From positions 1 to 35,788 of IMG/VR virus record IMGVR_UViG_3300031368_000192: a DNA stretch of 35,788 bases. One strand, given 5' to 3'. A model generated the notes under the pieces. It ran no database searches. It was given only the letters and a program-made list of their open reading frames with translations, and was not told the DNA's origin. This DNA is from a virus. The translations under genes were made by a program, and so were the position numbers. Positions 16,583 through 30,969 of this stretch are shown piece after piece. The first letter of the stretch is position 1; the number at the start of each line of letters is the position of its first letter.

Positions 16583-16583
16583 T

Positions 16584-17003
16584 TTATAGTCCTGTCGTTA
16601 CATACGCGGCATCGATCTGCCCCGCCGTTGCCCCGACTACGCCCGCCTGTACCTGGAATTGAGCATAGAACACAAGGCCGTCCAGGTCCCAAGACAGAAT
16701 CATCTGCTGGTCAGCATCGACATTGAACTCTATATATTCGTCTTCAACTAAAACAGCAGAGGCCCCCACTGTGCGGATCGGGAGCACGTACTCGTCTGCC
16801 CCGGCATTCTCCCACTTTACAAGCAACCGCACCCGCGCGTTGATGCTGTCGTTAATGTCCAGAGTAGTCCACAACGCAATGGTGCGCGCGCCGGTTACCG
16901 TCAGTTCAGCACCCAGGTCTGCCCAGGCGGCGGTCAGGTCTTGTGCCGCTGCCAGTAGAGCCTGCGGCCCTCCGATGATACCAGGTTTTTCAAGGCTTGC
17001 CAT
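16584..17003 (-). CDS. Hypothetical beta-rich virion-associated protein
   Basis: This 139-residue protein starts at ATG 17003 (MASLEKPGIIGGPQALLAAA) with a GGAGGG ribosome site at 17007-17012. The frame upstream to 17066 lies in the terminator hairpin and is not coding. The body looks like a small jelly-roll: AELTVTGARTIALWTTLDIN, RVRLLVKWENAGADEYVLPI, and FNVDADQQMILSWDLDGLVF. It is the first gene after the cargo operon. Its ribosome site touches the U-tract of an intrinsic terminator, so it may be expressed by read-through or anti-termination. Confidence 0.65.
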   Translation of the reverse strand: MASLEKPGIIGGPQALLAAAQDLTAAWADLGAELTVTGARTIALWTTLDINDSINARVRLLVKWENAGADEYVLPIRTVGASAVLVEDEYIEFNVDADQQMILSWDLDGLVFYAQFQVQAGVVGATAGQIDAAYVTTGL

Positions 17004-17012
17004 AAACCCTCC

Positions 17013-17076
17013 AAAAAAAAACGCCTGCTTTTGACGGCGAGATCGGGGGGAGATCAAACCGTGCAAAAAGCAGGCG
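17013..17076 (-). terminator. Strong intrinsic terminator after the csf cargo operon
   Basis: On the minus strand CGCCTGCTTTT (17076-17066) pairs with AAAAGCAGGCG (17032-17022) as an 11-bp stem. Inner pairs ACGG/CCGT enclose a C-rich loop, and the 3' arm runs straight into a tract of nine T residues (17021-17013). This is a textbook rho-independent terminator. It both ends the transcript of the cargo operon and lies about 30 nt downstream of the start point of a separate consensus promoter. Confidence 0.88.
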
Positions 17077-17104
17077 AATAGTAAAATTGGCCTTGTATTT
17101 AATT
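17013..17104 (-). ncRNA. Putative small RNA or attenuator leader
   Basis: A perfect promoter at 17111-17139 predicts transcription from about 17104, and the intrinsic terminator ends at about 17013. The product would be roughly 92 nt: an AU-rich 5' segment of about 28 nt followed by the hairpin. It contains no convincing ORF. It may be a stand-alone small RNA next to a type IV CRISPR effector that has no array, or a leader whose terminator gates the virion gene at 16584-17003. The start point and both roles are inferred. Confidence 0.5.
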
Positions 17105-17110
17105 ACTCAA

Positions 17111-17139
17111 ATTATACCACATCCTACGCAAGATGTCAA
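17111..17139 (-). promoter_or_regulatory. Perfect sigma-70 consensus promoter
   Basis: The minus strand reads TTGACA at 17139-17134, then 17 nt, then TATAAT at 17116-17111. Both hexamers and the spacer match the housekeeping-sigma optimum exactly. The -35 box starts 1 nt after the stop codon of the last cargo ORF. This is the only perfect promoter I noticed in the window, in a genome otherwise packed without intergenic space. Confidence 0.85.
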
Positions 17140-17140
17140 A

Positions 17141-17281
17141 TCAATCACGACTGAATTTTCCACGCGGCCGCCGGGAGAAACCATAATGCTTACACAGCCA
17201 GTCGTCTAGAATGACTAGGCAACGGTGCACGACCTCTGCCAGTTCAGCTACAAAGACAGTCCATTGGTCGTCAGTCATCAT
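17141..17281 (-). CDS. Tiny ORF coupled to csf3
   Basis: This 46-residue ORF begins at ATG 17281 (MMTDDQWTVFVAELAEVVHR), overlapping the csf3 stop as ATGA. An ATG at 17278 is equally possible. It is an amphipathic helix (about residues 4-28) followed by a basic tail, HYGFSRRPRGKFSRD. No family is recognised. Its coupling to csf3 and its position as the last gene before the promoter and terminator suggest it belongs to the cargo operon, perhaps as a small accessory to the effector. Confidence 0.5.
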   Translation of the reverse strand: MMTDDQWTVFVAELAEVVHRCLVILDDWLCKHYGFSRRPRGKFSRD

Positions 17282-18048
17282 GTGGCCTCCCTGGTGCCGG
17301 ACACTGCGCACAAAGTCGCGTACCGCCCGTCCCAATACGGCGGACGGTAGGTAGTGAACTCGCGTTGGAATTCACCGTTGATGCCGAGCTTGTTCAGCAA
17401 ATTGATAGGGACTGGGCGCATTAGAGCGCCGTCCGGCGAGAACACAGAGAGATCGTGCTCTGTTCTCTCCACCGTCCAACGGCGCACCAGGCCATATCCT
17501 CGCCGCCGCTTCTTGGCGATGGAGCGCACGAGCGGAAGCATCTCCTGCAGGTCGTCATAATTGCCGCGCACGTACCAGGTCAATGCGTCGGTGACGACGG
17601 TTTGCAGAGGGATGTACTTAGATGCGAACTCACCCTTGGCCGTATAGACCCGCTTGTGGCGCGTTTTCACGTAGCGGTCTACTTGCTCAAAGTCCACGCG
17701 CTTGGCCAAGTGCACCAGGTCGTGCTCGTACTCGCCCGGTATGGCCCACGAGGAACGATAGACCCACAAGCCATGATTCTCCCCATGGCCCCACACAGCT
17801 AACGGCATAAAATGGAGACGGTCTGGCACTTCCCAGCCCTGCTCGTGGAAATAGCGCAATGTACCAGCCCTGCCGTATTTGCGCACACCCCGCCGCCAGC
17901 GGCGCACGAGGCGATCACGTTGGCGCAGCTCGGGGTCCTCAATGATCGTCGCGCCAAGGATGCCGTCCAACGGCTGCCAGCGGTCCAGGGCAACCGGGGA
18001 CATCAGTTCGGCACGCACAATCAGCGATTCATAGTAATCGTCCATCAC
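17278..18048 (-). CDS. csf3: Csf3 (type IV Cas5-like RAMP protein)
   Basis: This protein of about 256 residues has the RAMP features of Csf3/Cas5. It opens with YYESLIVRAELMSPVALDRW and PLDGILGATI, the hydrophobic strand and L-D-G-x-L-A signature of Csf3. The middle has FMPLAVWGHGENHGLWVYRS then SWAIPG. The C-terminal part carries the glycine-rich loop SIAKKRRRGYGLVRRWTVER, followed by LMRPVPINLL. In type IV complexes Csf3 binds the 5' end of the guide RNA next to Csf1. The start overlaps the csf2 stop: GTG 18048 or ATG 18045. Csf2 and Csf1 relatives encoded just upstream support the call. It could also be described as a divergent Cas5 of a new subtype. Confidence 0.82.
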   Translation of the reverse strand: MMDDYYESLIVRAELMSPVALDRWQPLDGILGATIIEDPELRQRDRLVRRWRRGVRKYGRAGTLRYFHEQGWEVPDRLHFMPLAVWGHGENHGLWVYRSSWAIPGEYEHDLVHLAKRVDFEQVDRYVKTRHKRVYTAKGEFASKYIPLQTVVTDALTWYVRGNYDDLQEMLPLVRSIAKKRRRGYGLVRRWTVERTEHDLSVFSPDGALMRPVPINLLNKLGINGEFQREFTTYRPPYWDGRYATLCAVSGTREAT

Positions 18049-18986
18049 ACGCCTCCGCGTAATAGGGTTTCGATCTGCGCCCGGTTCTCCTCAAGGTGCT
18101 TGGCGGCCACCTCGCAGGAGTCCAGGGCCAGGTCGTTCTCAACACGCCCCGGGCCAACGAGGCGATATTGGTGTAGATCGAGAACAACGCGTCCGAATCC
18201 TCGCGCACCCCGCCCGCCGATTTTTGGCCGCTCGTAAAAATAGCCCAGGCCGCCAAAAAAGACGCCCAGCTCCACGTCGGTCGGGTTGCGCAGGGTGAAT
18301 CCCACCGAAAATGTGGTCCCCTGCGCCAGCGCCTCGTAGCCATAGCGCATCTGCATCGATGCGCCAGCGGCGTTGGCGTCGCCGCGCTCAGCACGAGCAG
18401 CTTGCTCGTGCTGGTATTCGTGCAGCGTGGCAGGTGCGATGTATGCCTGCCAGTCGCGGTTTTTCTTGTCGTCGCGGCGGGTGAAATTGACCTCCTGGAG
18501 CAGGTCCTCAATGTGCCAGGTCTCGGCCAGCGGCCACAGGTCCTCCGGCAGCGCCATTTTGGTCTCCACGCAAACCGGCACCCAGCGGTCGACGTCGATG
18601 CGCCCACCCAGAATGCGATTGCCGACGGAGGCTCCGAACAGGGAAACCACCGGCAGCAATTTACGAATCTGGTGTTCCTCAAATAAGTCGACGTATTTGG
18701 CATTGCCAGCGGAGACCAATGCTCCGCCGCCGGTGACCAGATCGAAGGAGCGCAGGTCTTCAAACTGGTCAAAATCTAGTTGATCCAGGCACCAGAACGC
18801 GCACTGGTCACGCAGAATGCCGGCAATGCTGTTGGCGCTGATGACCGGCATATACTCAAAGCGGTTGCCAACGCGCATTTTTTCGCGCCGGAATTCGGTC
18901 ACCGTGCCACCGGTACGTTCCCCGCCGTGGACAATTGGCTCAATGGCCTCGGCGATGCCCTCAATACGAATGATTCTCCTTTTCAC
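18045..18986 (-). CDS. csf2: Csf2 (type IV Cas7-like backbone protein)
   Basis: This protein of about 313 residues starts at GTG 18986 (VKRRIIRIEGIAEAIEPIVH) behind an AAGGGG site. A longer TTG start at 19013 would overlap the previous gene. Cas7/Csf2 features include GIAEAIEPIVHGGERTGGTV near the N-terminus, YMPVISANSIAGILRDQCAF (the I-S-G-N-S-I-R-G-like helix), FDLVTGGGALVSAGN, LLPVVSLFGASVGNRILGG and a C-terminal FGGLGYFYERPKIGGRGARG, the glycine-rich RAMP loop. Csf2 polymerises along the guide RNA to form the backbone of type IV complexes. The intact loop and hydrophobic core suggest a functional gene. Confidence 0.85.
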   Translation of the reverse strand: MKRRIIRIEGIAEAIEPIVHGGERTGGTVTEFRREKMRVGNRFEYMPVISANSIAGILRDQCAFWCLDQLDFDQFEDLRSFDLVTGGGALVSAGNAKYVDLFEEHQIRKLLPVVSLFGASVGNRILGGRIDVDRWVPVCVETKMALPEDLWPLAETWHIEDLLQEVNFTRRDDKKNRDWQAYIAPATLHEYQHEQAARAERGDANAAGASMQMRYGYEALAQGTTFSVGFTLRNPTDVELGVFFGGLGYFYERPKIGGRGARGFGRVVLDLHQYRLVGPGRVENDLALDSCEVAAKHLEENRAQIETLLRGGV

Positions 18987-18999
18987 GTTTTTCCCCTTT

Positions 19000-19428
19000 C
19001 TAACTATTTTCAAATTCGGTCCGCGTTTCCAGCTCCTCTTTGCGCTTGTCGCGGTACAAGCGCAGGAGCATAATCAGCACCGGCGTTTCGTCGCGCAGTT
19101 GATGTACGATATGCCGCTGCTCGGCTTCCGGCAAACTGAGCAGGCGAGCGATCTCGGCCCGCTCCTCAGCGTTGCCACCGATGCCGTTCAGGGTCAGCAT
19201 CCTGGCAATCTGTGCCAGGAAACCATCCAATCCGCGCCCCATCCGCGCGGCGGCGCGGACGCGGTCGGGGAAGATGCTCCAGATGCGGCGCGCGTAGCGG
19301 CTCCAGTCGGTCTGCGAACCGTACCACAAGCCACGCCAGAGGATGACCAGCAGCCGCCAGGCGTCGTAATAGCGCGCGACGTCAATGCCAGGCACCAGGT
19401 CGGATAAGTCTTCTTGTGTGTACTGCAT
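19000..19428 (-). CDS. Cas11-like small helical protein
   Basis: This 142-residue protein starts at ATG 19428, overlapping the stop of the transporter gene as TGATG, behind an AAAGGGG site. It is predicted almost fully helical and rich in Arg and Leu: YYDAWRLLVILWRGLWYG, YARRIWSIFPDRVRAAARMG, EERAEIARLLSLPEAEQRHI. Size, helicity and position immediately before csf2 match the small subunit (Cas11) of type IV-B and related class 1 effectors, which stacks along the Cas7 backbone and contacts target nucleic acid. Small subunits have little sequence conservation, so this is a call from context and composition. Confidence 0.6.
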   Translation of the reverse strand: MQYTQEDLSDLVPGIDVARYYDAWRLLVILWRGLWYGSQTDWSRYARRIWSIFPDRVRAAARMGRGLDGFLAQIARMLTLNGIGGNAEERAEIARLLSLPEAEQRHIVHQLRDETPVLIMLLRLYRDKRKEELETRTEFENS

Positions 19429-20024
19429 CAATTTTCCCCTTTCACCAAATAAATGCCCGGCAAACTGAACAAGGTAACTGCGCCCTTGACCAGTATGTTG
19501 CTCCAAAAGATCGACCACACCGTCACTGCTGCCAGGTTGCCGCCAAACGCTCCCCAGCAAAAGATCAGGCTGTCCACCGGGACGCTGATCGCGTTGCTGC
19601 TCAGCACTCTGAGCCACTGGTAACGCGTCGTCACCCGCGTAACCCACAGGTGATAGACCTCCGTGTCCAGGAGTTCACTGGCCACCTCGGCCAGGATGCT
19701 GGCAATGACGATGCGCCACACCGGCCCCAGAACAAGGGCAAACTCGTTTTGCAACCCCCAGCCGGGATCAGCCGGCAGCCAGATGACGAAGGCAAAAAGC
19801 GCGGCCATCACCAGGTTGATGACCCCGGCGGTGATGACCAGCGTCCGCGCGGCCCCTCTGCCCAAGAGCTTGTGCACCAGGTCGCGCAGCGTAAAGGTAA
19901 AGGGATAGATAAACGTCCCGCCGTCGATGCTGAACGAACCGACCAACGCGATTTTCAAGCTGGTGACGTCGGCCAGTATTTGCGCGGCGATATAGGACGA
20001 GATGACCAGGATAGTCTGGATCAC
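19428..20024 (-). CDS. YhhQ-family queuosine precursor transporter
   Basis: This 198-residue membrane protein is of the Vut_1/YhhQ (DUF165) family, whose characterised E. coli member imports preQ0 and preQ1. Evidence includes ISSYIAAQILADVTSLKIAL, the diagnostic SIDGGTFIYPFTFTLRDLVH, then LGRGAARTLVI, ASILAEVASELLDTEVYHLW, LSSNAISVPVDSLIFCWGAF and a final hydrophobic helix, giving about six membrane segments. The start is GTG 20024 within the csf1 stop (GTGA) behind a perfect AAGGAGACTAC. A TTG at 20042 is less likely. It sits between csf1 and the Cas11-like gene inside the operon, together with a TGT-like enzyme, so import of a deazaguanine precursor is the natural inference. Confidence 0.88.
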   Translation of the reverse strand: MIQTILVISSYIAAQILADVTSLKIALVGSFSIDGGTFIYPFTFTLRDLVHKLLGRGAARTLVITAGVINLVMAALFAFVIWLPADPGWGLQNEFALVLGPVWRIVIASILAEVASELLDTEVYHLWVTRVTTRYQWLRVLSSNAISVPVDSLIFCWGAFGGNLAAVTVWSIFWSNILVKGAVTLFSLPGIYLVKGEN

Positions 20025-20635
20025 GTAGTCTCCTTCGACCAAACATATTGCGCCAGATCCAGGTATGGCGTATGCAGGAACGGCTTTATGCCCTGGCGCA
20101 GGCGGATAAACTCAAGCGGATCGGACCACGAGGCCAGAAATTTCGCGTTATAGTCGTCGCTCTGAATCTCGTACCACGAGTGATGTTCGCGCAGTCGGTG
20201 CGCGGCCTGAGTCAGCCGCAGCCATTTTCGATCGAGGTCCAGAGAAACCACCTCAAAACGTACACGGAGAATCGCGTTGCCGGCCGCGCTCAACGGTGCC
20301 CACAGCGCTAAATGTTTCCGCTTCATGGTGGTGATCAAATAATAGCCATCGTGCTCCGGCGGCTGCTCCAGGTGCTGGCAGAGCAGCGGGTAGAGGTCGG
20401 CCTTAGCCAGCGGCCGGGCCTCGCCGGCGGTCAGATACCAGGAGGAACGGCGCAACTCCTGATGGCTCATATACCAGGCGCAAGCGGCGCAAACTACGCC
20501 GCTGATCACATTGCGCAGCGCAGCATGGTCGGTGAATGTTTTGCGCAGCGTTTTTTTGAGCGACACGCCATAGGACATCGGCAGACCGCAAACTGCGCAG
20601 GATTGATAGCCGGAGGGTACTTTGCCCCCGGTCAC
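20021..20635 (-). CDS. csf1: Csf1 (type IV CRISPR large-subunit-like, zinc finger)
   Basis: This protein of about 204 residues is read from GTG 20635, 1 nt past the previous stop. An ATG at 20719 would add 28 residues but overlap the upstream gene by 83 nt. The N-terminal four-cysteine zinc finger reads CAVCGLPM then SGVVCAACAWYMSHQ. RRSSWYLTAGE follows, and then KRKHLALWAPLS, which fits the conserved K-H-L-x-x-x-APxN segment of Csf1. The rest is beta-rich (LRVRFEVVSLDLDRKWL). Csf1 caps type IV complexes as the equivalent of Cas8. Its identity is reinforced by csf2 and csf3 downstream in the expected order. The transporter gene begins inside its stop codon. Confidence 0.78.
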   Translation of the reverse strand: MTGGKVPSGYQSCAVCGLPMSYGVSLKKTLRKTFTDHAALRNVISGVVCAACAWYMSHQELRRSSWYLTAGEARPLAKADLYPLLCQHLEQPPEHDGYYLITTMKRKHLALWAPLSAAGNAILRVRFEVVSLDLDRKWLRLTQAAHRLREHHSWYEIQSDDYNAKFLASWSDPLEFIRLRQGIKPFLHTPYLDLAQYVWSKETT

Positions 20636-20636
20636 A

Positions 20637-21338
20637 CTATGGTAAAACCACCTGGTGGTAAAAGTCGGTTCCACGCATTTCCTCCAACAAGCGAACCAAT
20701 TCCCATCCTCTGTGAACAATACCGAAATGGTCCGCTATGACAGCCAGTTGCCGCAGCAGCGGTATATCACGGTACTGAACTGCAGCAATTGTTTCTTCGG
20801 ACGTCGGTATCATTTTGCAGAGCGCTCCTACCTGACCACCGACACGGCGGTATCGCCAACCGTTGCGAAAAATTTTTTTGCCGAGGATACAAGTATTTCT
20901 TTTCGGAAAAAATTGCAGCTTGTTTAGTTCAAAGCGGCAAGAAAAAGGCGAATAGGAATGTATCTCGCATCTCCCGGTTCCCAGGTTCAAGAATTGACAT
21001 TTTTGGCCTTTCTTGAACCTCACTAATGCGGTATGACGGTTGCTGTAGAAAAATTGTTCACGACCACATACGATAACGTGACGCTGCCTAAATTTTTGCT
21101 CATGTTCCGGGTAGACCTTCAAGAAAAGAGGCCATTCCCAGGGCCAGAAATCCATCGAGAAAGCACGGCAGCACCCCCCGCAAAGAGGAGGACAGGTATA
21201 ATCTCTCCAGAATGTGGGAGAAACGACCAAGATCCCCGGCGGCGAAAAGCATCGATCTTTTATGCAGATATTCTCAACAGCTATCATTGACAAGTAATGA
21301 ATCGTTTTGATTATAGAATCAAACGTTGTTACCGTCAT
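20637..21338 (-). CDS. YkgJ-like cysteine-cluster protein
   Basis: This 233-residue protein starts at ATG 21338, overlapping the stop of the TGT-like gene (ATGA). The frame further upstream is only overlap. It contains the CxxCxxCC-type cluster CPPLCGGCCRAFSMDFWPWE and the second half CQFLNLGTGRCEIHSYSPFS followed by CRFE, as in the YkgJ family (PF03692), proposed to bind iron or zinc. The remainder is helical with no recognised domain. Function is unknown. In this operon it lies between the transglycosylase and csf1, about where type IV-B loci carry a CysH-like gene. It may be a redox or metal cofactor protein for the base-exchange step, but that is inference. This gene is less GC-rich than the csf genes. 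Confidence 0.7.
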   Translation of the reverse strand: MTVTTFDSIIKTIHYLSMIAVENICIKDRCFSPPGILVVSPTFWRDYTCPPLCGGCCRAFSMDFWPWEWPLFLKVYPEHEQKFRQRHVIVCGREQFFYSNRHTALVRFKKGQKCQFLNLGTGRCEIHSYSPFSCRFELNKLQFFPKRNTCILGKKIFRNGWRYRRVGGQVGALCKMIPTSEETIAAVQYRDIPLLRQLAVIADHFGIVHRGWELVRLLEEMRGTDFYHQVVLP

Positions 21339-22036
21339 TGCGCGATCTCCACGGCTACTCGCGCATTGTGCACAGCGATTTTGCGCCACGGCAGTTTGCT
21401 GCGCTCACGGCTGCCGTCCGAACGCCAGAACCAACCATCCTGTGCGTCGGTGTAATACGCGATGGTGTCGATGCTGTCAAAACAGCGGCGCTTGCGCCAG
21501 GCAATGATGTCGGCCGGGTTCCAGCCTGCACCGAGGCAATGTAACCATTTCGCGCCGGCCAGGCGCGCGATCTGACAAGCTGTCTCAATCCCACCGCTTT
21601 CCGCACAACGCAGGCCGGGGTTGGAGATGGCCACAAACTCTGGCTGGCTGTCAGCGTAAAAGCGCGCTTGTTTGGCGGCGGCATAGAGATCGAGATATTT
21701 TAGTTTGGTGAACTGGATGACCGGCACTACTGGCAGGCCGACGTGGGCCTGCCACCACTGCCAGTTCCTCATCGTCTGGTGTGGATCGAGAAACACGTCA
21801 GGAGCGATGCAATAGTAACCAGATCGGCCGGCGTAGGGCGCGTAATATTCGGCGAGCTGGCGCATATGTCGCTCGCCAATCTGGCTGCCGCGCTGCGACA
21901 GCCCGAACGCGCCCGAATCCAGGATGACCAGGCCATCATCCGGCGGATCGCTCGGCGGGGCCGGATAGGCGTAGAGGCGGCTGAATTGCAGCATATCGTC
22001 AGGCATGTTAGCAAACTGCGGGCAGATAAAATTCAT
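21335..22036 (-). CDS. TGT-superfamily transglycosylase, DpdA-like
   Basis: This 233-residue TIM-barrel protein resembles tRNA-guanine transglycosylase and the phage or bacterial DpdA enzymes that put 7-deazaguanines into DNA. Key elements are GLVILDSGAFGLSQRGSQIG, with the DSGAF/DSGGF acid-base aspartate; YYCIAPDVFLDPHQTM; PVVPVIQFTKLKYLD; WLHCLGAGWNPADIIAWR, the H-x-x-G-x-G loop; and FDSIDTIAYYTDA, aligning with the nucleophile-aspartate region of TGT (D-M-F-D). It lacks the C-terminal zinc site of bacterial TGT and is shorter (TGT about 370), both consistent with the phage DpdA type. ATG 22036 follows the previous stop by 2 nt; the ribosome site is weak. Substrate (DNA or RNA) is unproven. 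Confidence 0.75.
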   Translation of the reverse strand: MNFICPQFANMPDDMLQFSRLYAYPAPPSDPPDDGLVILDSGAFGLSQRGSQIGERHMRQLAEYYAPYAGRSGYYCIAPDVFLDPHQTMRNWQWWQAHVGLPVVPVIQFTKLKYLDLYAAAKQARFYADSQPEFVAISNPGLRCAESGGIETACQIARLAGAKWLHCLGAGWNPADIIAWRKRRCFDSIDTIAYYTDAQDGWFWRSDGSRERSKLPWRKIAVHNARVAVEIAQ

Positions 22037-22038
22037 TT

Positions 22039-22263
22039 TTAACTTTTCTTATTCATCCCCGCCGCCAGCACTTGTGCCTGATATGCCGCGACCAACTGCA
22101 TGGCCTGTTGCTCGCTGAACCCTTGCTTCTTGAGTGCGGTGTAGTACGCCGCCAATGCCTCTGCAATATCCTTGAACGCCGAGGCAACATCCGCACTGAA
22201 TATCACCGCGCCGACCTCTGTCGCAAGTGGGTCGTCCTCTGTGTGTCTTTGTGGCCTCTTCAA
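22039..22263 (-). CDS. Small helical protein of unknown function
   Basis: This 74-residue protein starts at TTG 22263 behind AGGAGACGTAAC. It contains SADVASAFKDIAEALAAYYT and KKQGFSEQQAMQLVAAYQAQ, an amphipathic helical pattern seen in short phage proteins near structural genes. No function is assignable. It is the last gene of the virion-like block before the cargo operon, with only 2 nt between its stop and the next ATG, so the cargo operon could be co-transcribed with it. Confidence 0.6.
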   Translation of the reverse strand: MKRPQRHTEDDPLATEVGAVIFSADVASAFKDIAEALAAYYTALKKQGFSEQQAMQLVAAYQAQVLAAGMNKKS

Positions 22264-22276
22264 GTTACGTCTCCTC

Positions 22277-23002
22277 TCATACTACAGCCCTCGTCAAATC
22301 CGCCACTACTGTTGCGTCCCCCACCGTTAACGTCGTCACGTCTCCGGCGTTGAGAACCTGAACATCGTAACCCAAGCTATCTGGTCTCAACTTTGCCGTC
22401 TCAACTTCGTCTAGCGCTATGGTGATGTCCCCGGCCACGGCGTCGTCAACTGTGATGCTGCCATTCACCGGAACGGTTGACGCCACACCATTTAGGTAGA
22501 GGAGACCCGCCGTCTCCTCAATCTGAACAATGGAGGCGGTGTCGGCGTCGGGATAGCCTTCTTTGACTGTGAACCACAGCTTGGCACGACCTACCAGGCT
22601 GCCCAATCCGGTTATGGCTACGCTGAGAGAGTCCCCGCGCCGGATGCTCATATCAGAGCCACTCAGGGCCGCTGCCAACGTTGCGCCAGCCGTCGTCAGT
22701 GTCGCCGATGACCGACCTATCGCGCCGGTGACGTGGTCGGTATCGAGGACCGTTGCGCCGGTGTAGGTTGCTCGCAAATAGTAGGTGTAAGTGTCCAAGT
22801 CCGCACCTGAGTAGATGCGGGCGTAGCAGCCGACGTTATCAATTTCCTCAGTAGGATGCTGCGTGCCGTCCCAAACCACATCATCTGCGCCGGTCGTGTT
22901 GTTCTGGCGCGTGAGGTACAAGTCGATCTCGGCTAAGGTGAGTGCCGTCGCCGGCTGGCCTGTGTTCTTTGTGAAAAACGCTGCAACTGTAAGGTTACTC
23001 AT
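22277..23002 (-). CDS. Phage structural protein with Ig-like beta domains
   Basis: This 241-residue Thr- and Asp-rich beta protein starts at ATG 23002, overlapping the glycosyltransferase stop (ATGA). The N-terminal half resembles short tail-associated proteins: LTVAAFFTKNTGQPATALTL, IDNVGCYARIYSGADLDTYT, then YYLRATYTGATVLDTDHV. The C-terminal half contains DMSIRRGDSLSVAITGLGSL and KLWFTVKEGYPDADTASIVQ, similar to baseplate upper-protein-like modules. Probable virion component; family uncertain. Confidence 0.6.
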   Translation of the reverse strand: MSNLTVAAFFTKNTGQPATALTLAEIDLYLTRQNNTTGADDVVWDGTQHPTEEIDNVGCYARIYSGADLDTYTYYLRATYTGATVLDTDHVTGAIGRSSATLTTAGATLAAALSGSDMSIRRGDSLSVAITGLGSLVGRAKLWFTVKEGYPDADTASIVQIEETAGLLYLNGVASTVPVNGSITVDDAVAGDITIALDEVETAKLRPDSLGYDVQVLNAGDVTTLTVGDATVVADLTRAVV

Positions 23003-25035
23003 AATCTACTCCATGCCTCGCCCTTGTATTGGCTGTGACTTCTGATCCTGTGCCAGCCCTTGACGTTTGAATCCTGTGCGGACTCATAGAGTGCGTAAAG
23101 GTCTTGGAACCATTTCTCAAACTCAAACTTCACGTTATCCATTGAGTAACGTTCCGCATGCCTGCGGATCACATGCGGATCGAGGTTGCCAACGCTGAGG
23201 GCTGCATTTACGAAGTCATCAAGAGTATCACAACGGAACCCTGTGATGCCACTTTGAACCGTCTCCAAAAAGCACCCAAAATTTGTCGTTATGACCGGTG
23301 TCCCACATAGCTGTGCTTCAACGTTGACCCCCCCAAACGCCTCAAGGTACAGGGTTGGCACGAACACAGCCTTGGCATGGCCCATAAGTTCGGCCCGTCG
23401 CTTTGGCCCGACGTAGCCCACGAACTCGCAATGGTCTGGCAGCTTCTTCACGTTTATCTCGTTGCTTTCTTGACCCGCTAAGATGAGCTTTGCGCCAATG
23501 GCCTGCGTCGTTTTGATCGCTGTCCAGACACCCTTGCGCGAGATCATTCTGCCAATGAAGAGGAAATAATCGCCCTTGTCTTCGCAAAAGGGAAAGTCAG
23601 CAGGATCGAAGTAGTTGGGGATAACACGATCATAGTAATTGCCATTGACGCTCTTGCCGGGGTTCTGGCTGCCATAGGTAAAGTTTTGCAGGTAAGCACT
23701 CTCAAATGCCCGAAAGCGAGTGTATGATCCTCGATAGCCAACCCCCGGTTCACAGGTCAGCCACAGTTTCACGCCGTCTGCAATTGGCTTCTGGTAGACA
23801 CCCTGGGTAAGCAAGAGAAAGTCGTCAGGCTTCTTGCGCTTGTTGATCTCCTCAATTGCTTTGGCATAATACTTCTTTGTCGTCTCTGTTCGTGCTGAAT
23901 TGAGATCGTGACGAAAACCAACACGCCGGTATGGGTAGCCGATCCCATCACATTCCTTGCGGCAATCCCCGCTTCCCCACGCTTGGCGAATATCCCTGAG
24001 CGTATGCGTTTGCACAAACTCTGTACACTCTGCATCCGACCCCTCTGCGCTGTAGAGATAGACAGTGTGGCCGAGGGACATAAGCATCTTTGACAGACGC
24101 CATATTTTAGTCGTGAAAGCGCAGGCCGGAAATTTGCTAGAGACGGGAAGATGAGAAAGACCAATCATGTGGAATGTATGCTTTTCCACAGAAGTCGCCT
24201 TACTCATTTTTACCTCCTTGAGTTGAGAATATACTGGCTGTCCCCGAACCAATCTTGACAATAAAGTATTTCCATCTCTCACAGTTTTCTCATTTGTCGC
24301 ATCAAACCCCGCTTTGCGAGAGGTGGCATAAAATGGGATCGTCCTGCAATCTGGATGCAGGAGTTTGCCATCCTTTTGCCAGAGGTAAAACTCCGGAAGC
24401 GGATCGCCGCGCTCCCAGCCACCGAGCAGGCCGAAACCAGCAATGGATAATTTGTCTAGATTTTGCAAGGTGTGGTTGAGAAACGGAATGATGCCCGCCC
24501 CGCCGAACCTTAATTGACCGTTCTCTATTGCCTTATGCCTGCCAGCAGGACACTCGCCAAACAGGGTCCTCGTTGAATCCTCATAGATCGACTGCGCAAT
24601 CTTGGAACCTCGTCGGCAAGTTGCTCCGTGCATGCAAAATGGCCAACCAGTCTTTGTCCTAATCCCATCTGGATCGTCGAGACCGACTAGCATTTCCTTG
24701 TCGGGCTTCAGCAGATCATGAAACGGCTTGAGCGTAAAACTATCCAGACCCATGACTGTACCGCCTCGCTCCATCATTATCCGCCAGATGCAGTTGTCGA
24801 AGATCGCTACTCGCTTGAAATGATCGCCGCGCCCCTCTAGCATCGGGAACTCAGGGATTTTCCAGGGGTAGCTCACGATCTCCACCTTGCCCTGGATGCG
24901 ATCGAAGTACTCACCGGTCGGCGTCTCCACTAACCACAATTTGACCTTCTCACCAAACGCCTCAACCGCGCTGGTGATCCCCAAGTAATAAGCATACGGA
25001 AATTTAGGCCCAGTATTTACAAAGTGTACTCTCAT
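22999..25035 (-). CDS. Two-domain glycosyltransferase (GT32-like + GT4)
   Basis: This protein of about 678 residues contains two enzymes in one frame. Residues about 1-275 are a GT32-like transferase: HFKRVAIFDNCIWRIMMERG then GTVMGLDSFTL, corresponding to the D-x-x-R-x-x-x-L-x-x-x-GG-x-Y-x-D-x-D region. Residues about 277-650 form a GT4 enzyme with FIGRMISRKGVWTAIK and a complete EX7E motif, EAFGGVNVEAQLCGTPVITT. Directly between them the DNA carries AAGGAGGTAAAAATGAG, a perfect ribosome site plus ATG at 24207. The second enzyme may thus also be made alone (402 residues), or the two genes were recently joined by loss of a stop. It lies in a block with a methyltransferase and a nitroreductase. 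Likely role: glycan modification of virion or host surface. Confidence 0.85.
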   Translation of the reverse strand: MRVHFVNTGPKFPYAYYLGITSAVEAFGEKVKLWLVETPTGEYFDRIQGKVEIVSYPWKIPEFPMLEGRGDHFKRVAIFDNCIWRIMMERGGTVMGLDSFTLKPFHDLLKPDKEMLVGLDDPDGIRTKTGWPFCMHGATCRRGSKIAQSIYEDSTRTLFGECPAGRHKAIENGQLRFGGAGIIPFLNHTLQNLDKLSIAGFGLLGGWERGDPLPEFYLWQKDGKLLHPDCRTIPFYATSRKAGFDATNEKTVRDGNTLLSRLVRGQPVYSQLKEVKMSKATSVEKHTFHMIGLSHLPVSSKFPACAFTTKIWRLSKMLMSLGHTVYLYSAEGSDAECTEFVQTHTLRDIRQAWGSGDCRKECDGIGYPYRRVGFRHDLNSARTETTKKYYAKAIEEINKRKKPDDFLLLTQGVYQKPIADGVKLWLTCEPGVGYRGSYTRFRAFESAYLQNFTYGSQNPGKSVNGNYYDRVIPNYFDPADFPFCEDKGDYFLFIGRMISRKGVWTAIKTTQAIGAKLILAGQESNEINVKKLPDHCEFVGYVGPKRRAELMGHAKAVFVPTLYLEAFGGVNVEAQLCGTPVITTNFGCFLETVQSGITGFRCDTLDDFVNAALSVGNLDPHVIRRHAERYSMDNVKFEFEKWFQDLYALYESAQDSNVKGWHRIRSHSQYKGEAWSRL
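24205..24219 (-). promoter_or_regulatory. Internal ribosome-binding site and start within the glycosyltransferase fusion
   Basis: The minus strand reads AAGGAGGTAAAAATG ending at 24205. The Shine-Dalgarno core is complete and the spacing to the ATG is optimal. The start is in the same frame as the long ORF and lies exactly at the boundary between its two transferase domains, so a shorter GT4-only product is expected. Confidence 0.75.
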
Positions 25036-25613
25036 CAATAGAATATCCTTTCTAGCTTTCGCTTAGGTGACTCAGGGGCCGACACTGTATATTTGCCCAA
25101 TGCCATTGCCCCACAGAATTGCAGTCCACGTGGATTGAACTGCCTATCAAATTGCCCCCGATCTTCCTTACGGATATTAGGGTTGACGAAGCATGCACCG
25201 ATGTTCAGCGCCGTCGCTGCAAGGTACACATTCTCTCCTACAAAGCCCGCGTCCAGATATGGCATGAAGTCTCTCTCGGCAGGAGACTTGTAAGCCAGCA
25301 TATCGGCAAAGAGCAATAGAATGATTTGAGCGCCTCCTAGCCAGTTTTTACCGCCGACTAAAAGACAGTCCAATTCAGCTTTTTCCCTTTCTTCTGTGAC
25401 TGGTTTCACGAGGATAGCCTGTCTATTGCAAGATGAGGGAGATAGCCTAATTGCCTCATAGATTTGATTCAATTCTACTTCTGTGATTTCCGCCTCGCTG
25501 AAAATTCGCTGGCTCTTTCTGGCTCTCAGTATGCCAAACAATGCACATCGAACTTCTGCATCCATCTGTGGCTTGCCAGAAATGGACTCTCTTTTTCTTG
25601 CCTGATGTTCCAA
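25035..25613 (-). CDS. Nitroreductase-family flavoprotein
   Basis: This 192-residue protein belongs to the nitroreductase FMN family. Evidence is RARKSQRIFSEAEITEVELN then AIRLSPSSCNRQAI, the FMN-binding S-x-x-N-x-Q-P/A segment, and GAQIILLLFADMLAYKSPAE and FVGENVYLAATALNIGACFV, the typical helix lining the dimer interface. The best start is TTG 25613 behind AGGAGAGATAC. A GTG at 25652 would overlap the methyltransferase by 20 nt. Such enzymes reduce nitro or quinone substrates or act on specialised flavin chemistry. A role in phage biology is not obvious, and its setting among glycan enzymes suggests tailoring of a surface modification. Confidence 0.82.
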   Translation of the reverse strand: MEHQARKRESISGKPQMDAEVRCALFGILRARKSQRIFSEAEITEVELNQIYEAIRLSPSSCNRQAILVKPVTEEREKAELDCLLVGGKNWLGGAQIILLLFADMLAYKSPAERDFMPYLDAGFVGENVYLAATALNIGACFVNPNIRKEDRGQFDRQFNPRGLQFCGAMALGKYTVSAPESPKRKLERIFY

Positions 25614-25632: not shown

Positions 25633-26232
25633 TCAACTTGTTGGGAAAACACCGTAATATCCTCTCCCCTTACAGCCAGCTTGCCCCGTGAACTGCTCTA
25701 CCTTTCCCTCACCACCAAGCCATTCATTCAATTTGTTCTCTGTCAGTGTGTGGATGTGACCGACGCTGGTCGGCACATCGATCCATTCAAAAACACGAAC
25801 GATATCGGCGACCCGCTGCGCACCTGCAATCACTAGTTGCGGGTTCTCAGTGTGCTGAAGACAGTTATAAATCCATGCTTCTGTCCAGTAGTCATCGTGA
25901 AGTGAGAACAGTTCCTCGCCACACATTTTCCAATAGCACAGGTCGGGTGCATCATCATATCGTGCCAACACCCAACGCGGCATGTGCATCGGGTCAATCA
26001 CAACGCCATACTCGTAGTTAGTGCATTTGAGAAGCAGGCTGGCTGGTCCTCCCCCGACGTCCACGACTGAGACGCCGCCGAGGTCAAAGTTGTATGGCGA
26101 TTTGCCATTATGGAAAGTTTGCAGTCCCATCCGGTCGGCATAGAGAAGTTGTTTTTCCTCTTCCCCAAATGTGTTTAGACTTAGCCCGTGCCAGTCTTGT
26201 TCCCACTTTTGCGCCTCTGACCATTTGCTCAT
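25633..26232 (-). CDS. Class I SAM-dependent methyltransferase
   Basis: This 199-residue protein has a Rossmann methyltransferase signature: VSVVDVGGGPASLLLKCTNY, then GVVIDPMHMPRWVLARYDDA, and DYWTEAWIYNCLQHTENPQL, the Y-N-x-L-Q-H-T region seen in methyltransferases acting with sugar cassettes. Substrate unknown. ATG 26232 overlaps the LamG stop as TAATG. Together with the nitroreductase and the two-domain glycosyltransferase downstream it forms a second sugar-tailoring cassette parallel to the one at 3926-7729. Confidence 0.82.
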   Translation of the reverse strand: MSKWSEAQKWEQDWHGLSLNTFGEEEKQLLYADRMGLQTFHNGKSPYNFDLGGVSVVDVGGGPASLLLKCTNYEYGVVIDPMHMPRWVLARYDDAPDLCYWKMCGEELFSLHDDYWTEAWIYNCLQHTENPQLVIAGAQRVADIVRVFEWIDVPTSVGHIHTLTENKLNEWLGGEGKVEQFTGQAGCKGRGYYGVFPTS

Positions 26233-26909
26233 TAGTAATCCTTAAGATATGCGGGTTGTACCGTCACTGGATAGAAAACTCGTGTATGCGCCGCAATGCT
26301 TGGCGTGTTGAACGCTCCCATATCGTATCCGCCTACCCTGTCCTGGTCCTCGTCACGGATCAACGGCCAGTATGCCACCAGGTTTTGTGGATGGACAAAG
26401 AGGGGTGAATAGCCTTTGGCGAGAATAGCAACTTCGGCATCGGTAAGCGCGACATTCCACAAAGCAACTTCGCAAATCCTGCCACTTGTGTAGTCGCCGG
26501 GTGACGAGTCGCGTTTTCCACCAATAGCAATGGCATCAATCGACGCATCATTCGATATTCCTGCGCTCGTCCCTTTCGAGCCGCCGTCTATGTACGACGC
26601 CCTGCTGTTGTTGTTGATGAATACACCACACGCGTGATGCCACGTATTGACTGAATATCCAGTCAACGTATGGGCACGAAAATCCCCTCTCCTCACCCGT
26701 GCCTCAATGTGGTCACCAACGAGGTCGCCACGTAACGTTAACGCCCAATAATCCGAGCCGCCTGCGGTGTCCGTAACCTGTATCAACGTCTGCTCGGCGG
26801 TAGCGTCGTCTGAATAGAACCAGCATGCCATCGTCAGCGGGTACGCTGTGATAGGCGTGCTGGCGATGAATAGATATTCGGATGAACCATCGTCAAATAG
26901 TCGCGCCAT
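26232..26909 (-). CDS. LamG/concanavalin-like domain protein (copy 3)
   Basis: This 225-residue LamG_3 jelly-roll protein has FDDGSSEYLFIASTPITAYP, LTMACWFYSDDATAEQTLIQ, NTWHHACGVFINNNSRASYI then DGGSKGTSAG, and the closing GRICEVALWNVALTDAEVAI. This is a standard LamG order including the W-H-H and D-G loop. It follows the collagen-like fibre gene with a ribosome site (AAGGAGACA) inside that gene's stop. Probable carbohydrate-binding virion decoration. Confidence 0.85.
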   Translation of the reverse strand: MARLFDDGSSEYLFIASTPITAYPLTMACWFYSDDATAEQTLIQVTDTAGGSDYWALTLRGDLVGDHIEARVRRGDFRAHTLTGYSVNTWHHACGVFINNNSRASYIDGGSKGTSAGISNDASIDAIAIGGKRDSSPGDYTSGRICEVALWNVALTDAEVAILAKGYSPLFVHPQNLVAYWPLIRDEDQDRVGGYDMGAFNTPSIAAHTRVFYPVTVQPAYLKDY

Positions 26910-26914
26910 ATGTA

Positions 26915-28954
26915 CTATGTCTCCTTGATCTCGACTGCCACTAGCTCGGCATCTCCCGCCGCCGTATCACTGGCTGCGTCTCGTGTGACTTTGATTCTGA
27001 ATGATTCGCCTACTGCGATGCTATCCATCTGTGCACCATTCGTGAACGCAATTGAGACGATGTCTACCAATCCAGATGTGCCAGGCACAACTGTATTATC
27101 CACACTTTGCACTGCCGCAAAGCTATCGGCATCAATATCCTGTTGTTGATCGCCGATGCGTTCCAATGCCGCATCCCAGTCAATGTCACCGGAAGTTGCT
27201 GTCGCCATTGCATAATGGATGTAGACTGTGATACCACCAGCAGCATAGTGACGCGGCATAATGGCTGTGAAAACGGCACTTTCGTTTGTCGTGTCGTCAA
27301 AATCCAAAACGGGGTGAACGTTCCGCGTATCAAGCGTAGCGTAATTTGACGTTGGCGGTTCATTGTCAGCGGGCCGGAAAATGAGCAAGGTATTCCCGCT
27401 TGCCGTTGGAGCCGCGCCGGTGTCGCCGTCTGCACCCGTATCGCCGGCCGATCCGGTATCACCATCTGCCCCGGTATCGCCGACCCCAGTATCACCAATT
27501 CCCGTGTCACCTTGAATTCCGGTATCACCAACCTGGCCCGTATCGCCAATTCCGGTATCACCAACTCCGGTATCGCCCTGAATTCCCGTGTCACCGATGC
27601 CTGTATCTCCGACGCCAGTGTCGCCTTGAACTCCAGAATCGCCCTGAATTCCAGTATCGCCGACGCCCGTGTCACCGGCCTCGCCAGAGTCACCTTGAAT
27701 TCCCGTATCGCCAACTCCCGTGTCTCCGATTCCAGTGTCACCAGCCTGGCCTGTATCACCAATCCCAGTATCACCAACACCCGTCGCGCCGACTTGGCCG
27801 GTATCGCCAATTCCTGTATCACCCTGAATTCCGGTGTCTCCGATTCCTGTGTCGCCTTGAATTCCCGTCGCGCCAACCCCGGTATCACCTGCCTGGCCTG
27901 TATCACCGACTCCCGTCGCGCCAACGCCAGAATCACCTTGAATTCCCGTCGCGCCAACGCCAGTATCTCCAACTCCGGTATCGCCCTGCTGACCCGTGTC
28001 ACCGACTCCCGTCGCGCCGATTCCGGTGTCACCGCTCGCCCCAGTATCACCAATTCCCGTGTCACCCTGAATTCCAGAATCGCCGGCCGATCCCGTCGCG
28101 CCAACTTGGCCGGTGTCGCCGATTCCTGAGTCACCCTGCGACCCTGTATCTCCAATTCCTGTGTCACCGACTTGGCCTGTATCACCGACCCCGGTATCTC
28201 CAATTCCGGTGTCGCCTTGTTGGCCTGTATCTCCGACGCCTGTTGCGCCAACTCCCGTATCCCCGGCCTGACCCGTGTCGCCAACCCCTGTATCTCCGAT
28301 TCCTGTGTCGCCGCTCGCCCCAGTGTCGCCGATTCCTGAGTCACCCTGAATTCCTGTTGCGCCGATCCCGGTATCGCCAGCCTGGCCTGTGTCACCTTGG
28401 ATTCCTGTGTCGCCAATACCCGTGTCGCCAACTCCGGTGGAACCAACCTGACCCGTGTCGCCGGCCGACCCGGTATCGCCGCCAACTCCCGTCGCGCCAG
28501 CCTGACCCGTGTCACCGATTCCCGTTGCGCCGACGCCCGTATCACCACTTTGGCCTGTGTCACCAATACCTGTTGCGCCGTCTGACCCGGTATCGCCAAC
28601 CCCGGTGTCGCCTTGAATTCCTGTGTCGCCGACGCCTGTGGCCCCGACCGACCCGGTATCGCCGATTCCAGTGTCACCGATTCCTGTCGCGCCTGTCGCG
28701 CCCGTCGCGCCGGCCGACCCGGTGTCTCCAATGCCTGTGTCACCGACACCTGTTGCACCCTGAATTCCCGTCGCACCGACCGCGCCGGTGTCGCCGATCC
28801 CGGTATCACCAACACCCGTCGCGCCGACTGTCCCCGTGTCGCCAGCCTGACCCGTGTCACCGACACCAGTATCGCCAATTCCGGTATCCCCGGCCGCGCC
28901 GGTATCCCCGTCCGCACCTACTCCAACTTGTTGTCTTGCATCTAAAAGTGCCAT
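26915..28954 (-). CDS. Collagen-like fibre protein with mixed 5/6-residue repeats
   Basis: This 679-residue protein has a short N-terminus ([14 protein letters not shown]), about 500 residues of Gly-rich repeats (about 14-514) and a 165-residue C-terminal domain ([20 protein letters not shown] onward). Repeats are built of [12 protein letters not shown]-like 6-mers (two regular Gly-X-Y triplets) mixed with [10 protein letters not shown] 5-mers. The triplet register is therefore broken many times by G-x-G steps. The strong Asp and Thr content is unusual for collagen. Phage collagen-like proteins are commonly trimeric fibres or virion decorations. The C-domain probably nucleates trimerisation and may bind the host. 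ATG 28954; GAGG lies upstream. It is adjacent to the portal gene in the genome. Confidence 0.88.
27412..28912 (-). repeat. 15-18-bp degenerate tandem repeats encoding GDTG units
   Basis: About 1.5 kb of short repeats with minus-strand core GGNGANACNGG, in units of 15 or 18 bp. They encode the collagen-like region. Codons vary between units, so the repetition is stronger in protein than in DNA. This implies either old duplication or selection against slippage. A long open frame on the plus strand here is a by-product of the repeat. Confidence 0.9.
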
Positions 28955-29052
28955 CGCGCACCATCCTCAAATATCGAAAATGGCTTGCGCGATTTTCCTC
29001 TAGTGGTCGGTTAGCCAGGCGGCGAACCTCTATTCAGTTTGTAGAATTCTCC

Positions 29053-30969
29053 CTATGGCATACTTGGCAACTTGCCTCGAGTCAACGGTTCGTCTGTTTG
29101 CGTCAGGGTGCACTTGCAGACAGTGACACCCCCCGCGTCAATCATACATTGCAGGTTCGGACCCTGCGGCCTTATCCCCGCTGCATTCCACATGGAAATT
29201 CTTTTCACCTTGCCGTTCAATTTTGAACAGCTCGTGCACGGCTCCTGTGAATGTATATCCCACCGCGCCTTGAAGTCCTCTCGCGCAGTGAGCATCGCCT
29301 CGTGCATCACCTGCGTGTACCGTGCCTGCCACTTCAGAGTGCGTTGCAGGTGCGGCCCCAACTTGAAGTCCGGCCTGGCCTTCGCCTCAATGTCGTTGCC
29401 AAACGGAATAATGTGCTGCATCTCATTGGCTGTGATTCCCTCAATGCGGGTCAATTCACTTTGCGTCAATTCGTCTTCTTTAATTCCAACTTTTCTTGCG
29501 CCTTCGATCCAGGCACGACGTAGGTTACGTTGCACCGTTGCTGTCATGAAATCAACGAAATCAAAGTATTCGATCTTGCCTGACCATAGTCCGCGCACAG
29601 CCGCGCGCAACCCCAGGCCATAGTCAGAGAAACCATCGTGCACTATGAGTCCGGTCATGTTCTCCTCTTCCCGTGGCGCATATCCGAGTGCCTCCCTCGC
29701 CTCGTCGTCGGTGACTGGCATGGCGCCAGTGAGAGGATCGGAGAGTTTGCGGATCGCGCCGGCCGTCTTGTCCTTGATGTCGGCTTGCTCTAGATCAGTC
29801 AGTTCAAACAGGGACGGCCACGACCAAGTACCATCCTCACCAAGTACGCCAACATTGTAGTTACCTGAGTCGGGGAGAGGGAGGATACCAATGAGAACGA
29901 GGCGATCAATGAAAGGCCGGAGTATCTCCGGCTCGGCATAGTTTACCTGCCGACTGGCAATCGAACCAAACCATTGTCGGCTGTCTTCTTTCGCCGCCGC
30001 TAACTGACCCGCTGCCGAGCCAAGTAGCCGCCGCTGTGGAATACCGGTGGCCGCTGCGATCAATTTGATCGTTACGTCAAACAAGCCAGTCGGATCAACA
30101 ACCTCACCGGGTAACTGTGTTGCATCGACGCCTTCGAGGAACAAAAGGCGCGCCACGTCATGCAGGTACTCATCAACCTCCTCTTGTCGCGCGGCCTTTG
30201 CTGCTGCATCGTCAGGCAACTCGTAGCCCTCACGCGGCGTGAGTAAAGTCCCCGGCCTCATGTTCAACCAGGTCGCCTCAGCCGAACCGCCGACGATCTT
30301 CATGAGATCGTCGAGGCGGTTGAACACTCGCTGTAGCCTCGGCAGACCATACGTCTCGCTGTCCAACTTGCCCTCTGCCACGTGGATCAACCGCGACCAA
30401 TGCACAGTTCTCGTGCCACTGCTTTCTCCAAGTTGGACGCGATACGTCTCTGGCATACCAAAACGGGGCGAGTTTGCATCTGTATTCCACGTGGAAATGG
30501 ACGCGCCAGCCTCGCTAAGAGGATTCAGGTAGAGGAGAGAAGAAACGCCTTGAGCGGAACGAGCTTCAACGGCCCTGCCTAGATCAGGCTGGCCCTTGAC
30601 GCCGAGGAGCAAAACGCCATATCTCCCGATGCCAGACAGCCGGTCAACCCGCATCAACTTTGACCAGACACGATGCCTGGTTGCCAACGTATTCCATGCC
30701 TGGACAAATGCCGTATCCTCGTTGCCGTCTTCGCTTACCATCGGTGGTTTCCGCCAGGTATCCTGAGCAGGGAGATCAACGATGCGCCCGGCTATGTCCT
30801 GGCGTTGGTAGCGTTGCGAGTATGTGGCCATGCTGATCGTCTTGGGATAGCCGAAAACGAGATAGTAGTCTCGACCTCCTCCGTATGCCGTCTGGCCCAA
30901 GTCTGCGGCCAGTGATGCACGCCCAGGCGAGAGCGCAAATAATTGTTGCCGTCGTGATAGTTTTTTCAC
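29053..30969 (-). CDS. Portal protein fused to MuF-like domain
   Basis: This protein of about 638 residues is probably read from GTG 30969, six nt past GGGAGG; an ATG at 30975 touches that site. Residues about 1-430 form a DUF1073/Phage_portal_3-type portal: TISMATYSQRYQRQDIAGRI then VDLPAQDTWRKPP, RIHV-like HWSRLIHVAEGKLDSETYGL, IAAATGIPQRRLLGSAAGQL then DSRQWF. The last 200 residues are a MuF/SPP1 gp7-like head morphogenesis domain with TRIEGITANEMQHI and Cys pairs CTSC and CKC near the end. The portal is the dodecameric DNA gate of the head. Fusion to MuF replaces the usual separate minor head gene. Confidence 0.85.
   Translation of the reverse strand: MKKLSRRQQLFALSPGRASLAADLGQTAYGGGRDYYLVFGYPKTISMATYSQRYQRQDIAGRIVDLPAQDTWRKPPMVSEDGNEDTAFVQAWNTLATRHRVWSKLMRVDRLSGIGRYGVLLLGVKGQPDLGRAVEARSAQGVSSLLYLNPLSEAGASISTWNTDANSPRFGMPETYRVQLGESSGTRTVHWSRLIHVAEGKLDSETYGLPRLQRVFNRLDDLMKIVGGSAEATWLNMRPGTLLTPREGYELPDDAAAKAARQEEVDEYLHDVARLLFLEGVDATQLPGEVVDPTGLFDVTIKLIAAATGIPQRRLLGSAAGQLAAAKEDSRQWFGSIASRQVNYAEPEILRPFIDRLVLIGILPLPDSGNYNVGVLGEDGTWSWPSLFELTDLEQADIKDKTAGAIRKLSDPLTGAMPVTDDEAREALGYAPREEENMTGLIVHDGFSDYGLGLRAAVRGLWSGKIEYFDFVDFMTATVQRNLRRAWIEGARKVGIKEDELTQSELTRIEGITANEMQHIIPFGNDIEAKARPDFKLGPHLQRTLKWQARYTQVMHEAMLTAREDFKARWDIHSQEPCTSCSKLNGKVKRISMWNAAGIRPQGPNLQCMIDAGGVTVCKCTLTQTDEPLTRGKLPSMP

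Follow-up and report, generated by a model that had tools for sequence, protein, structure and literature searches.

What becomes of a collagen-like chain when its Gly-X-Y register is broken at almost every other repeat unit, and what might a phage carry on such a stem? These questions are raised by a single gene in the IMG/VR virus record IMGVR_UViG_3300031368_000192, whose complete stretch of 35,788 bases was analysed and is here called the window. We combined repeat statistics, searches of viral and bacterial sequences, structure prediction and gene neighbourhood comparisons to describe its 679-residue product, in which a Gly-rich stem stands before a domain with a predicted jelly-roll fold (Table 1).

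Table 1 Coordinates of the features discussed in this work
Feature	Position in window	Strand	Basis
Interrupted collagen-like stalk protein gene, 679 aa	26915..28954	-	ORF list and PHROG matches
N-terminal 12 residues, without recognisable anchor domain	28919..28954	-	
Gly-rich stem, aa 13-514 (502 aa), pentads and hexads mixed	27413..28918	-	
C-terminal domain, predicted jelly roll, 164 aa (~165)	26918..27409	-	Relatives, AlphaFold2, structural neighbours
LamG / concanavalin-A-like lectin protein, next gene downstream	26232..26909	-	PF13385, E 7.3e-20
Glycosyltransferase	22999..25038	-	PF00534, E 5.2e-20
csf1/Cas8	20021-20719	-	E 1.2e-22
Vut_1 transporter, between csf1 and cas11	19428-20042	-	PF02592, E 1.9e-37
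cas11	19000-19647	-	E 3e-11
csf2/Cas7	18045-19013	-	E 1e-55
csf3/Cas5	17278-18048	-	E 1.3e-39
Two tandem proteins of ~230 aa	14775-16150	-	By eye
Glycosyltransferase with apparent intein	5282-7639	-	LAGLIDADG domain, PF14528, E 4.7e-15

Reading frame and family matches

The stalk gene has a GAGG motif about 10 nt ahead of its ATG. A PHROG profile search matched its protein to seven families, of which four are annotated as tail fiber protein, one as tail protein and two as function unknown (best, phrog_5073, tail fiber protein, E 2.9e-25), with scores that composition may inflate. At E 1e-3 it matched no Pfam family, Collagen included, and against the NCBIfam Lcl/Scl models it reached 27-30 bits, far under their cut-offs of 325-500. 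A degenerate DNA search of viral contigs with the N-terminal peptide found a single match, in a sister contig (L001, IMGVR_UViG_3300031643_000017).

Two more frames stay open for about 600 codons across the stem, at 27064-28917 (-; 617 aa) and 27400-29226 (+; 608 aa), and more probably reflect the repeat itself than additional genes. When the 32 exact GDTG[IV] pentads were compared, codon positions differed in 63% (third), 10% (first) and 0% (second) of cases, and 28 of the 32 DNA sequences were distinct. This third-position variation therefore points to protein-level selection on the GDTG frame and, together with the homologous C-terminal domain, fixes that frame.

One-residue slots hold only isoleucine or valine

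The stem contains 184 Gly, 87 Thr, 77 Asp, 38 Ala, 35 Ile, 33 Val, 30 Gln, 17 Ser and one Glu, which amounts to 37% Gly, or 2.73 residues per Gly, and 78 acidic residues per chain; none of its 502 residues is Pro, Lys or Arg, and it has no variable segments. Its 183 Gly-to-Gly spacings comprise 135 of three residues, 47 of two and one of one, with none larger, so that 47 G-X-G and one G-G separate it from an uninterrupted or nearly uninterrupted Gly-X-Y chain. An overlapping parse resolves it into 93 units, each consisting of G[D/A/S][T/S] and a second Gly slot that holds one residue in 47 units and two in 46, with 32 units being exact GDTG[IV] and Ile-Gln filling 12 of the two-residue slots. 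The preliminary description, in which G-x-G interrupted about every other unit through roughly 500 residues, was thus accurate in both respects. Parsed without overlap, the stem gives 48 five-residue units (one of which, GDTGA, is merely the stem end), 43 six-residue units and two odd tokens.

All 47 one-residue slots are occupied by Val (24) or Ile (23), whereas these residues take the first position in 13 of the 46 two-residue slots (Fisher 6e-15). Because the two kinds of slot differ in this way, a residue is missing only after Ile or Val, a rule on which the preliminary description was silent, as it was on the C-terminal jelly roll and the neighbouring LamG gene. Pentads occur singly (13) or in pairs (17) and never three in a row, and the longest run is likewise two in the non-overlapping parse; this ceiling, an observation made post hoc, was matched by 0/2000 and 0/200,000 shuffles. 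Breaks are also spread more evenly than expected by chance (33/2000 shuffles as even), and the coherence of the Gly stripe, that is, the keeping of one face, is marginal and not significant (117/2000 shuffles as good, in a parse that counts the last two stem residues as a break). The longest unbroken stretch spans seven triplet spacings and the longest stretch present twice is 20 residues. Duplication of 11- and 16-residue modules, rather than structure, could have produced the pentad spacing.

Conservation in a sister contig

L001 matches the window at 99.7% across 9.6 kb. Over the first 514 codons of the stalk gene, 506 are identical, five differ synonymously and three change the amino acid (two Ile/Val swaps and one Gln to Arg), with no indel. 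All 47 breaks are kept; a scripted count of 48 two-residue spacings in L001 includes a GVG just before the start of the window's stem. The region is repetitive, as a sequencing or assembly artefact would have it, but the frame is intact over 679 codons, variation falls at third positions and L001, which may or may not be an independent sample, retains every break, so that the repeated unit losses by assembly error envisaged in the preliminary description are contradicted and an artefact is vanishingly improbable.

Break density in viral and bacterial sequences

To our stem's 25.7% of broken spacings we compared viral contigs scanned for GDTGxxGDTGxxG, which an unbroken chain can also satisfy and which returned at least 120 stretches. 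A first look at 80 loci among the matches listed gave 78 ORFs from 71 loci, 56 of them with at least 30 Gly spacings and a median break fraction of 1.3%; Ile or Val filled 47 of 236 single slots. The final sample, of 119 loci among the matches listed, gave 117 collagen-like ORFs from 103 loci, including 91 with at least 30 Gly spacings. Across these 91, still among the matches listed, the G-X-G fraction has a median of 1.5% and a 90th percentile of 7.3%, and is zero in 29; one alone exceeds the window (L114, 12/38 spacings, with Asp, Thr and Ala as single residues). Pro is absent from seven of the 91, Lys and Arg from 24 and all three from two.

The breaks themselves also differ in kind. Gaps of four or more residues make up 244 of 340 breaks in the full sample, among the matches listed, and 0 of 48 in the window (Fisher 6e-24), an approximate comparison, because in the sample a gap was scored only where perfect runs of four or more triplets flanked it. 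In the sample among the matches listed, Ile and Val account for 59 of 379 single slots, compared with 1228 of 11173 X positions (p 0.008), and Ala (67) and Thr (65) are both commoner in single slots. We thus reject Ile/Val in single slots as a general phage rule; since its excess in the sample is mild, the 47/47 rule belongs to the lineage of the window.

Other sequences in the survey have patterns of their own. The phage collagen-like ORF L192, with breaks in 33 of 229 spacings, represents a lineage whose favoured single residue is a different one, Ala (28 of the 33 single slots). Another, L083 (-), contains GETGVGAKGDKGDTG modules and has 13 of 85 spacings broken, mostly as G-V-G. A phage collagen-like protein with 1500 residues or more, which runs off the end of its locus (L069:4440-8939, +), has 23 G-V-G or G-A-G breaks among its 320 Gly spacings; a search of that contig for the C-terminal domain of the stalk, made without a positive control, gave no match.

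The search for the GDTG[IV] pattern elsewhere that the preliminary description had proposed returned exact doubles in three viral stretches, one of which is L001, and a single GDTG[IV]GDTG in 21; collagen-like ORFs account for 16 of the latter, at break levels of 1-15%. A viral protein at L068:1279-4722 (-) has Asp-rich DxDGDG-like repeats and, after them, the same pentads, here outside a collagen context. In bacterial genomes the pentad pattern occurs in 68 stretches, mostly as short runs; of the six longest, five are GATGV-type and lie within short frames on Lachnospiraceae contigs. Long GATGV runs with short open frames are seen in L220, L224, L226, L241, L263 and L279, and these Lachnospiraceae runs may be the antisense of Pro-rich linkers rather than genes.

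Collagen-like phage tail fibres (PHROGs 5073, 6320, 28263 and 366) share with the stalk their Gly-X-Y triplets, a long stem and occasional breaks, and differ in break density (26% in the stalk against the median of the 91 ORFs among the matches listed) and in that the stalk has no Pro, Lys or Arg. Titles and abstract beginnings in the open-licence literature yielded no description of a regularly interrupted phage collagen. Bella 2014 is said to be a census of collagen interruptions and a 2006 paper reportedly deals with the Gly-X-Gly interruption. In those Escherichia coli prophage EPcl proteins that have two Col domains, a single interruption is common in the first (PMC3368898).

A predicted jelly-roll domain that usually stands alone

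Relatives of the C-terminal domain were found in 67 viral loci, L001 included, and in none of the other 66 is the domain preceded by a Gly run longer than 15 residues. In 56 of these 66 loci, some of which are truncated at contig ends, the open frame does not exceed 230 aa, suggesting that elsewhere the domain is usually a small separate protein; ten have longer N-terminal parts of other kinds. Separate relatives often start with MASGDTLLIFT or near it and, judging from how the window's domain begins, the stem seems to have been joined on at what was formerly the protein's start.

AlphaFold2, supplied with 58 aligned sequences, predicts a beta protein with a pLDDT of 94.8. Its fold neighbours in the PDB are jelly rolls, from CBM6, CBM35, CBM36, Cry toxins, meprin and Eph receptors (Z ~11-12, 119-130 residues aligned, rmsd 2.5-3.0). 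The best CBM6/35/36 chains share the fold at Z 11.7-12.0 with 8-16% sequence identity, but as Cry, meprin and Eph chains score like them, the comparison identifies the fold class only. No strong sequence relative was found in Pfam, PHROG or the PDB, and the Pfam matches of the 58 members at E 0.1 included no CBM. Among PHROGs, two members match phrog_9983 (tail protein, best E 5e-4) and one each matches two unnamed families; the best PDB profile match, a DARPin entry (E 0.0074), was taken as chance, and a phage collection of 50,697 records gave no match. The best viral model neighbour is A0A5Q2W4F6 (TMq 0.90, 38% identity), and ranks 5 and 6 are BFVD models of two giant-virus proteins (Catovirus and Klosneuvirus) that bear the name collagen triple helix repeat protein and have the jelly-roll fold in common (TMq 0.68 and 0.72) at 15-17% identity.

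The head of mannan-binding lectin is unrelated to this domain. That lectin likewise joins a collagen stalk with a G-X-G break to a binding head, and has one GQG break, against 47 in the phage stalk (PMC9898670).

Gene neighbourhood

We searched the 66 loci, with up to 6 kb of flank on each side, by tblastn with 34 window proteins, the domain and cas11 being set apart. A LamG relative is present in 50, always downstream of the domain, and in 48 the distance from the start of the domain match to its own start is under 1 kb (more in L058 and L060); some of the 16 loci lacking a match have little downstream sequence. The only other window protein matched was p8144, in two loci. The jelly-roll and LamG gene pair thus recurs in otherwise different surroundings, and we know of no name for it. 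Two tandem proteins elsewhere in the window look mutually related and LamG-like by eye; used as tblastn queries in the 66 loci, they gave no match.

In the window the stalk gene comes after the portal gene (PF06381). A search for portal phrog_146 in 20 relatives' records gave no match, nor did its control. Nine proteins from relatives were tested against families: those encoded upstream in L055 and L009 are tail proteins, the one from L027, a fused relative, matches both head-decoration and tail-fibre families, that of L058 matches a function-unknown family and five match nothing. A collagen-like virion protein encoded among head genes is also described for SPP1, whose gp12, a capsid accessory protein of 64 aa compared to 679 in the stalk, is typified by a trimer bound to the capsid surface (PMC6316719).

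It is possible that the glycosyltransferase encoded at a short distance from the stalk modifies it, or something else. Given the many Thr at Y positions and this nearby gene, sugar decoration of stem Thr is conceivable. In BclA, glycosylation is on Thr. This protein is a bacterial collagen-like protein, and its glycosylation is noted in PMC8968730.

The same phage carries type IV CRISPR-Cas effector genes (window 17278-20719, -), which are possibly of more interest than the stalk; no regularly spaced CRISPR-like repeat was found within 16500-22400. A Vut_1 gene lies among them, from a family that includes queuosine-precursor transporters, and among the papers listed we found none joining type IV CRISPR, Csf2, phage and queuosine. 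A second glycosyltransferase gene has an apparent intein, whose Intein_splicing match (E 1.2e-06) falls under its cut-off.

Structural readings of the stem

Three chains set at staggers of 0, 1 and 2 residues have one Gly at 451 levels, two at 49 and none at no level. As no Gly gap exceeds three and no level is Gly-free at a one-residue stagger, we favour an oligomeric Gly-cored rod, soft or re-coiled, that would serve as an adsorption stalk derived from phage collagen, and give this reading about an even chance. The stem would have come from a phage collagen with GDT-GIQ-like units, from which the Y residue following Ile or Val was lost in roughly one unit of two. Its hexads are collagen triplets, and the words GDTGIQ and GDTGVGDTG occur in other viral collagen-like ORFs at lower break density. 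Extended and most likely trimeric, it would have glycines lining its core: since gaps are only ever shortened and never lengthened, a homotrimer whose chains keep the usual one-residue stagger would have at least one Gly at every cross-section. Each missing residue would rewind the chain locally at the cost of hydrogen bonding, leaving a rod that is softer, kinked or differently coiled than canonical collagen. Against this stand the lack of Pro, Lys and Arg to stabilise a triple helix and the 78 acidic residues.

The same composition, with its 77 Asp, would suit an intrinsically disordered, acidic, elastin-like tether acting as a flexible leash for the jelly roll. The elastin pentad G-V-G-V-P has the same Gly spacing as the stem pentad G-V-G-D-T. 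Moreover, short GDTG[IV] arrays occur in Asp-rich stretches of Deltaproteobacteria ORFs (L242, L258 and L280), as well as in a Myxococcales ORF (L218) and the viral contig L068, and AlphaFold2 gave a single chain of 200 stem residues neither fold nor secondary structure, with a pLDDT of 34.7. True collagens, however, would also be expected to give low single-sequence confidence, and such a model says little about a trimer. A leash needs no gaps of at most three, no single slots limited to Ile and Val and no pentad runs of at most two, and we therefore prefer the Gly-cored rod and judge a tether unlikely, though a serious contender. For one unusual collagen, prediction by AlphaFold3 is reported to contrast starkly with experiment (PMC11869133). 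Composition (77 Asp, one Glu, no Lys or Arg) is what suggests the ion-binding fibre of the preliminary description, which the stem may be.

Another regular Gly-rich structure, either a bundle of polyglycine-II type or a coil of three chains that takes its pitch from how densely the breaks occur, seems improbable to us. The polyproline-II helix is threefold, at -120 degrees per residue. If each chain were such a helix, evenly spread one-residue deletions and a two-glycine repeat of five and six residues would, at 2.73 residues per Gly, make the Gly stripe precess by about 33 degrees per Gly, setting a right-handed coil of three chains with a pitch of about 30 residues and no proline. The even spread of breaks, the pentad ceiling and a Gly Fourier peak at 132.5 degrees per residue fit such a coil, whereas the non-significant Gly coherence does not; were it true, the breaks would be a regular design element and not a defect. 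For the bundle, the model is gp38 of phages S16 and PP01, also a Gly-rich phage adhesin, which uses polyglycine-II helices (PMC12892980, PMC6851490). The polyglycine domain of gp38 packs ten Gly-rich motifs in a sandwich, with hypervariable segments between them, and has more than 50% Gly; on the stem's lower Gly content and lack of such segments we rejected the sandwich itself.

Still more doubtful is a collagen triple helix that stays essentially canonical while accommodating G-X-G breaks this often. No break is commoner than G-X-G in sampled phage collagens (87/340, full sample among the matches listed), where it is tolerated at low density, but the stem is never unbroken for more than its seven triplet spacings, and its 47 breaks and lack of proline make a continuous canonical helix unlikely. 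According to PMC9898670, a single GQG replacing a central POG triplet of (POG)10 lowers the melting temperature of this Hyp-rich peptide from 64 to 32 C, a drop of 32 C, while the peptide with the native GQG has a bend. These data fit the strong disturbance of a normal triple helix that the preliminary description expected.

A beta-solenoid can be discarded. Such folds are known with hexapeptide or pentapeptide motifs, and the alternation of five and six residues and the presence of Gln, Ser and Ala in the would-be inward slot rule them out; the absence of strands from the single-chain model is weak evidence alone.

Discussion

On present evidence, the stalk is an extreme variant of phage collagen fibres and not a new kind of system. 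The protein would be the stalk and tip of a phage adsorption structure, in which the oligomeric rod keeps a CBM-like jelly roll at a distance from the particle, and cell-surface glycans are the probable target on which this jelly roll and the neighbouring LamG protein act together; for a CBM-like domain that is stalked and has a lectin next to it, glycan-directed adsorption would be a natural role.

Collagen interruptions have mostly been studied singly and in animal proteins. Here, a natural chain has 47 breaks of one kind, always at Ile or Val and never with a lengthened gap, and it could tell which of two conditions collagen really requires, 'Gly every third residue' or 'no gap above three'. 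For the phages themselves, it means that one lineage sets a stalk before a jelly-roll protein that elsewhere is usually free-standing, often with a lectin gene after it.
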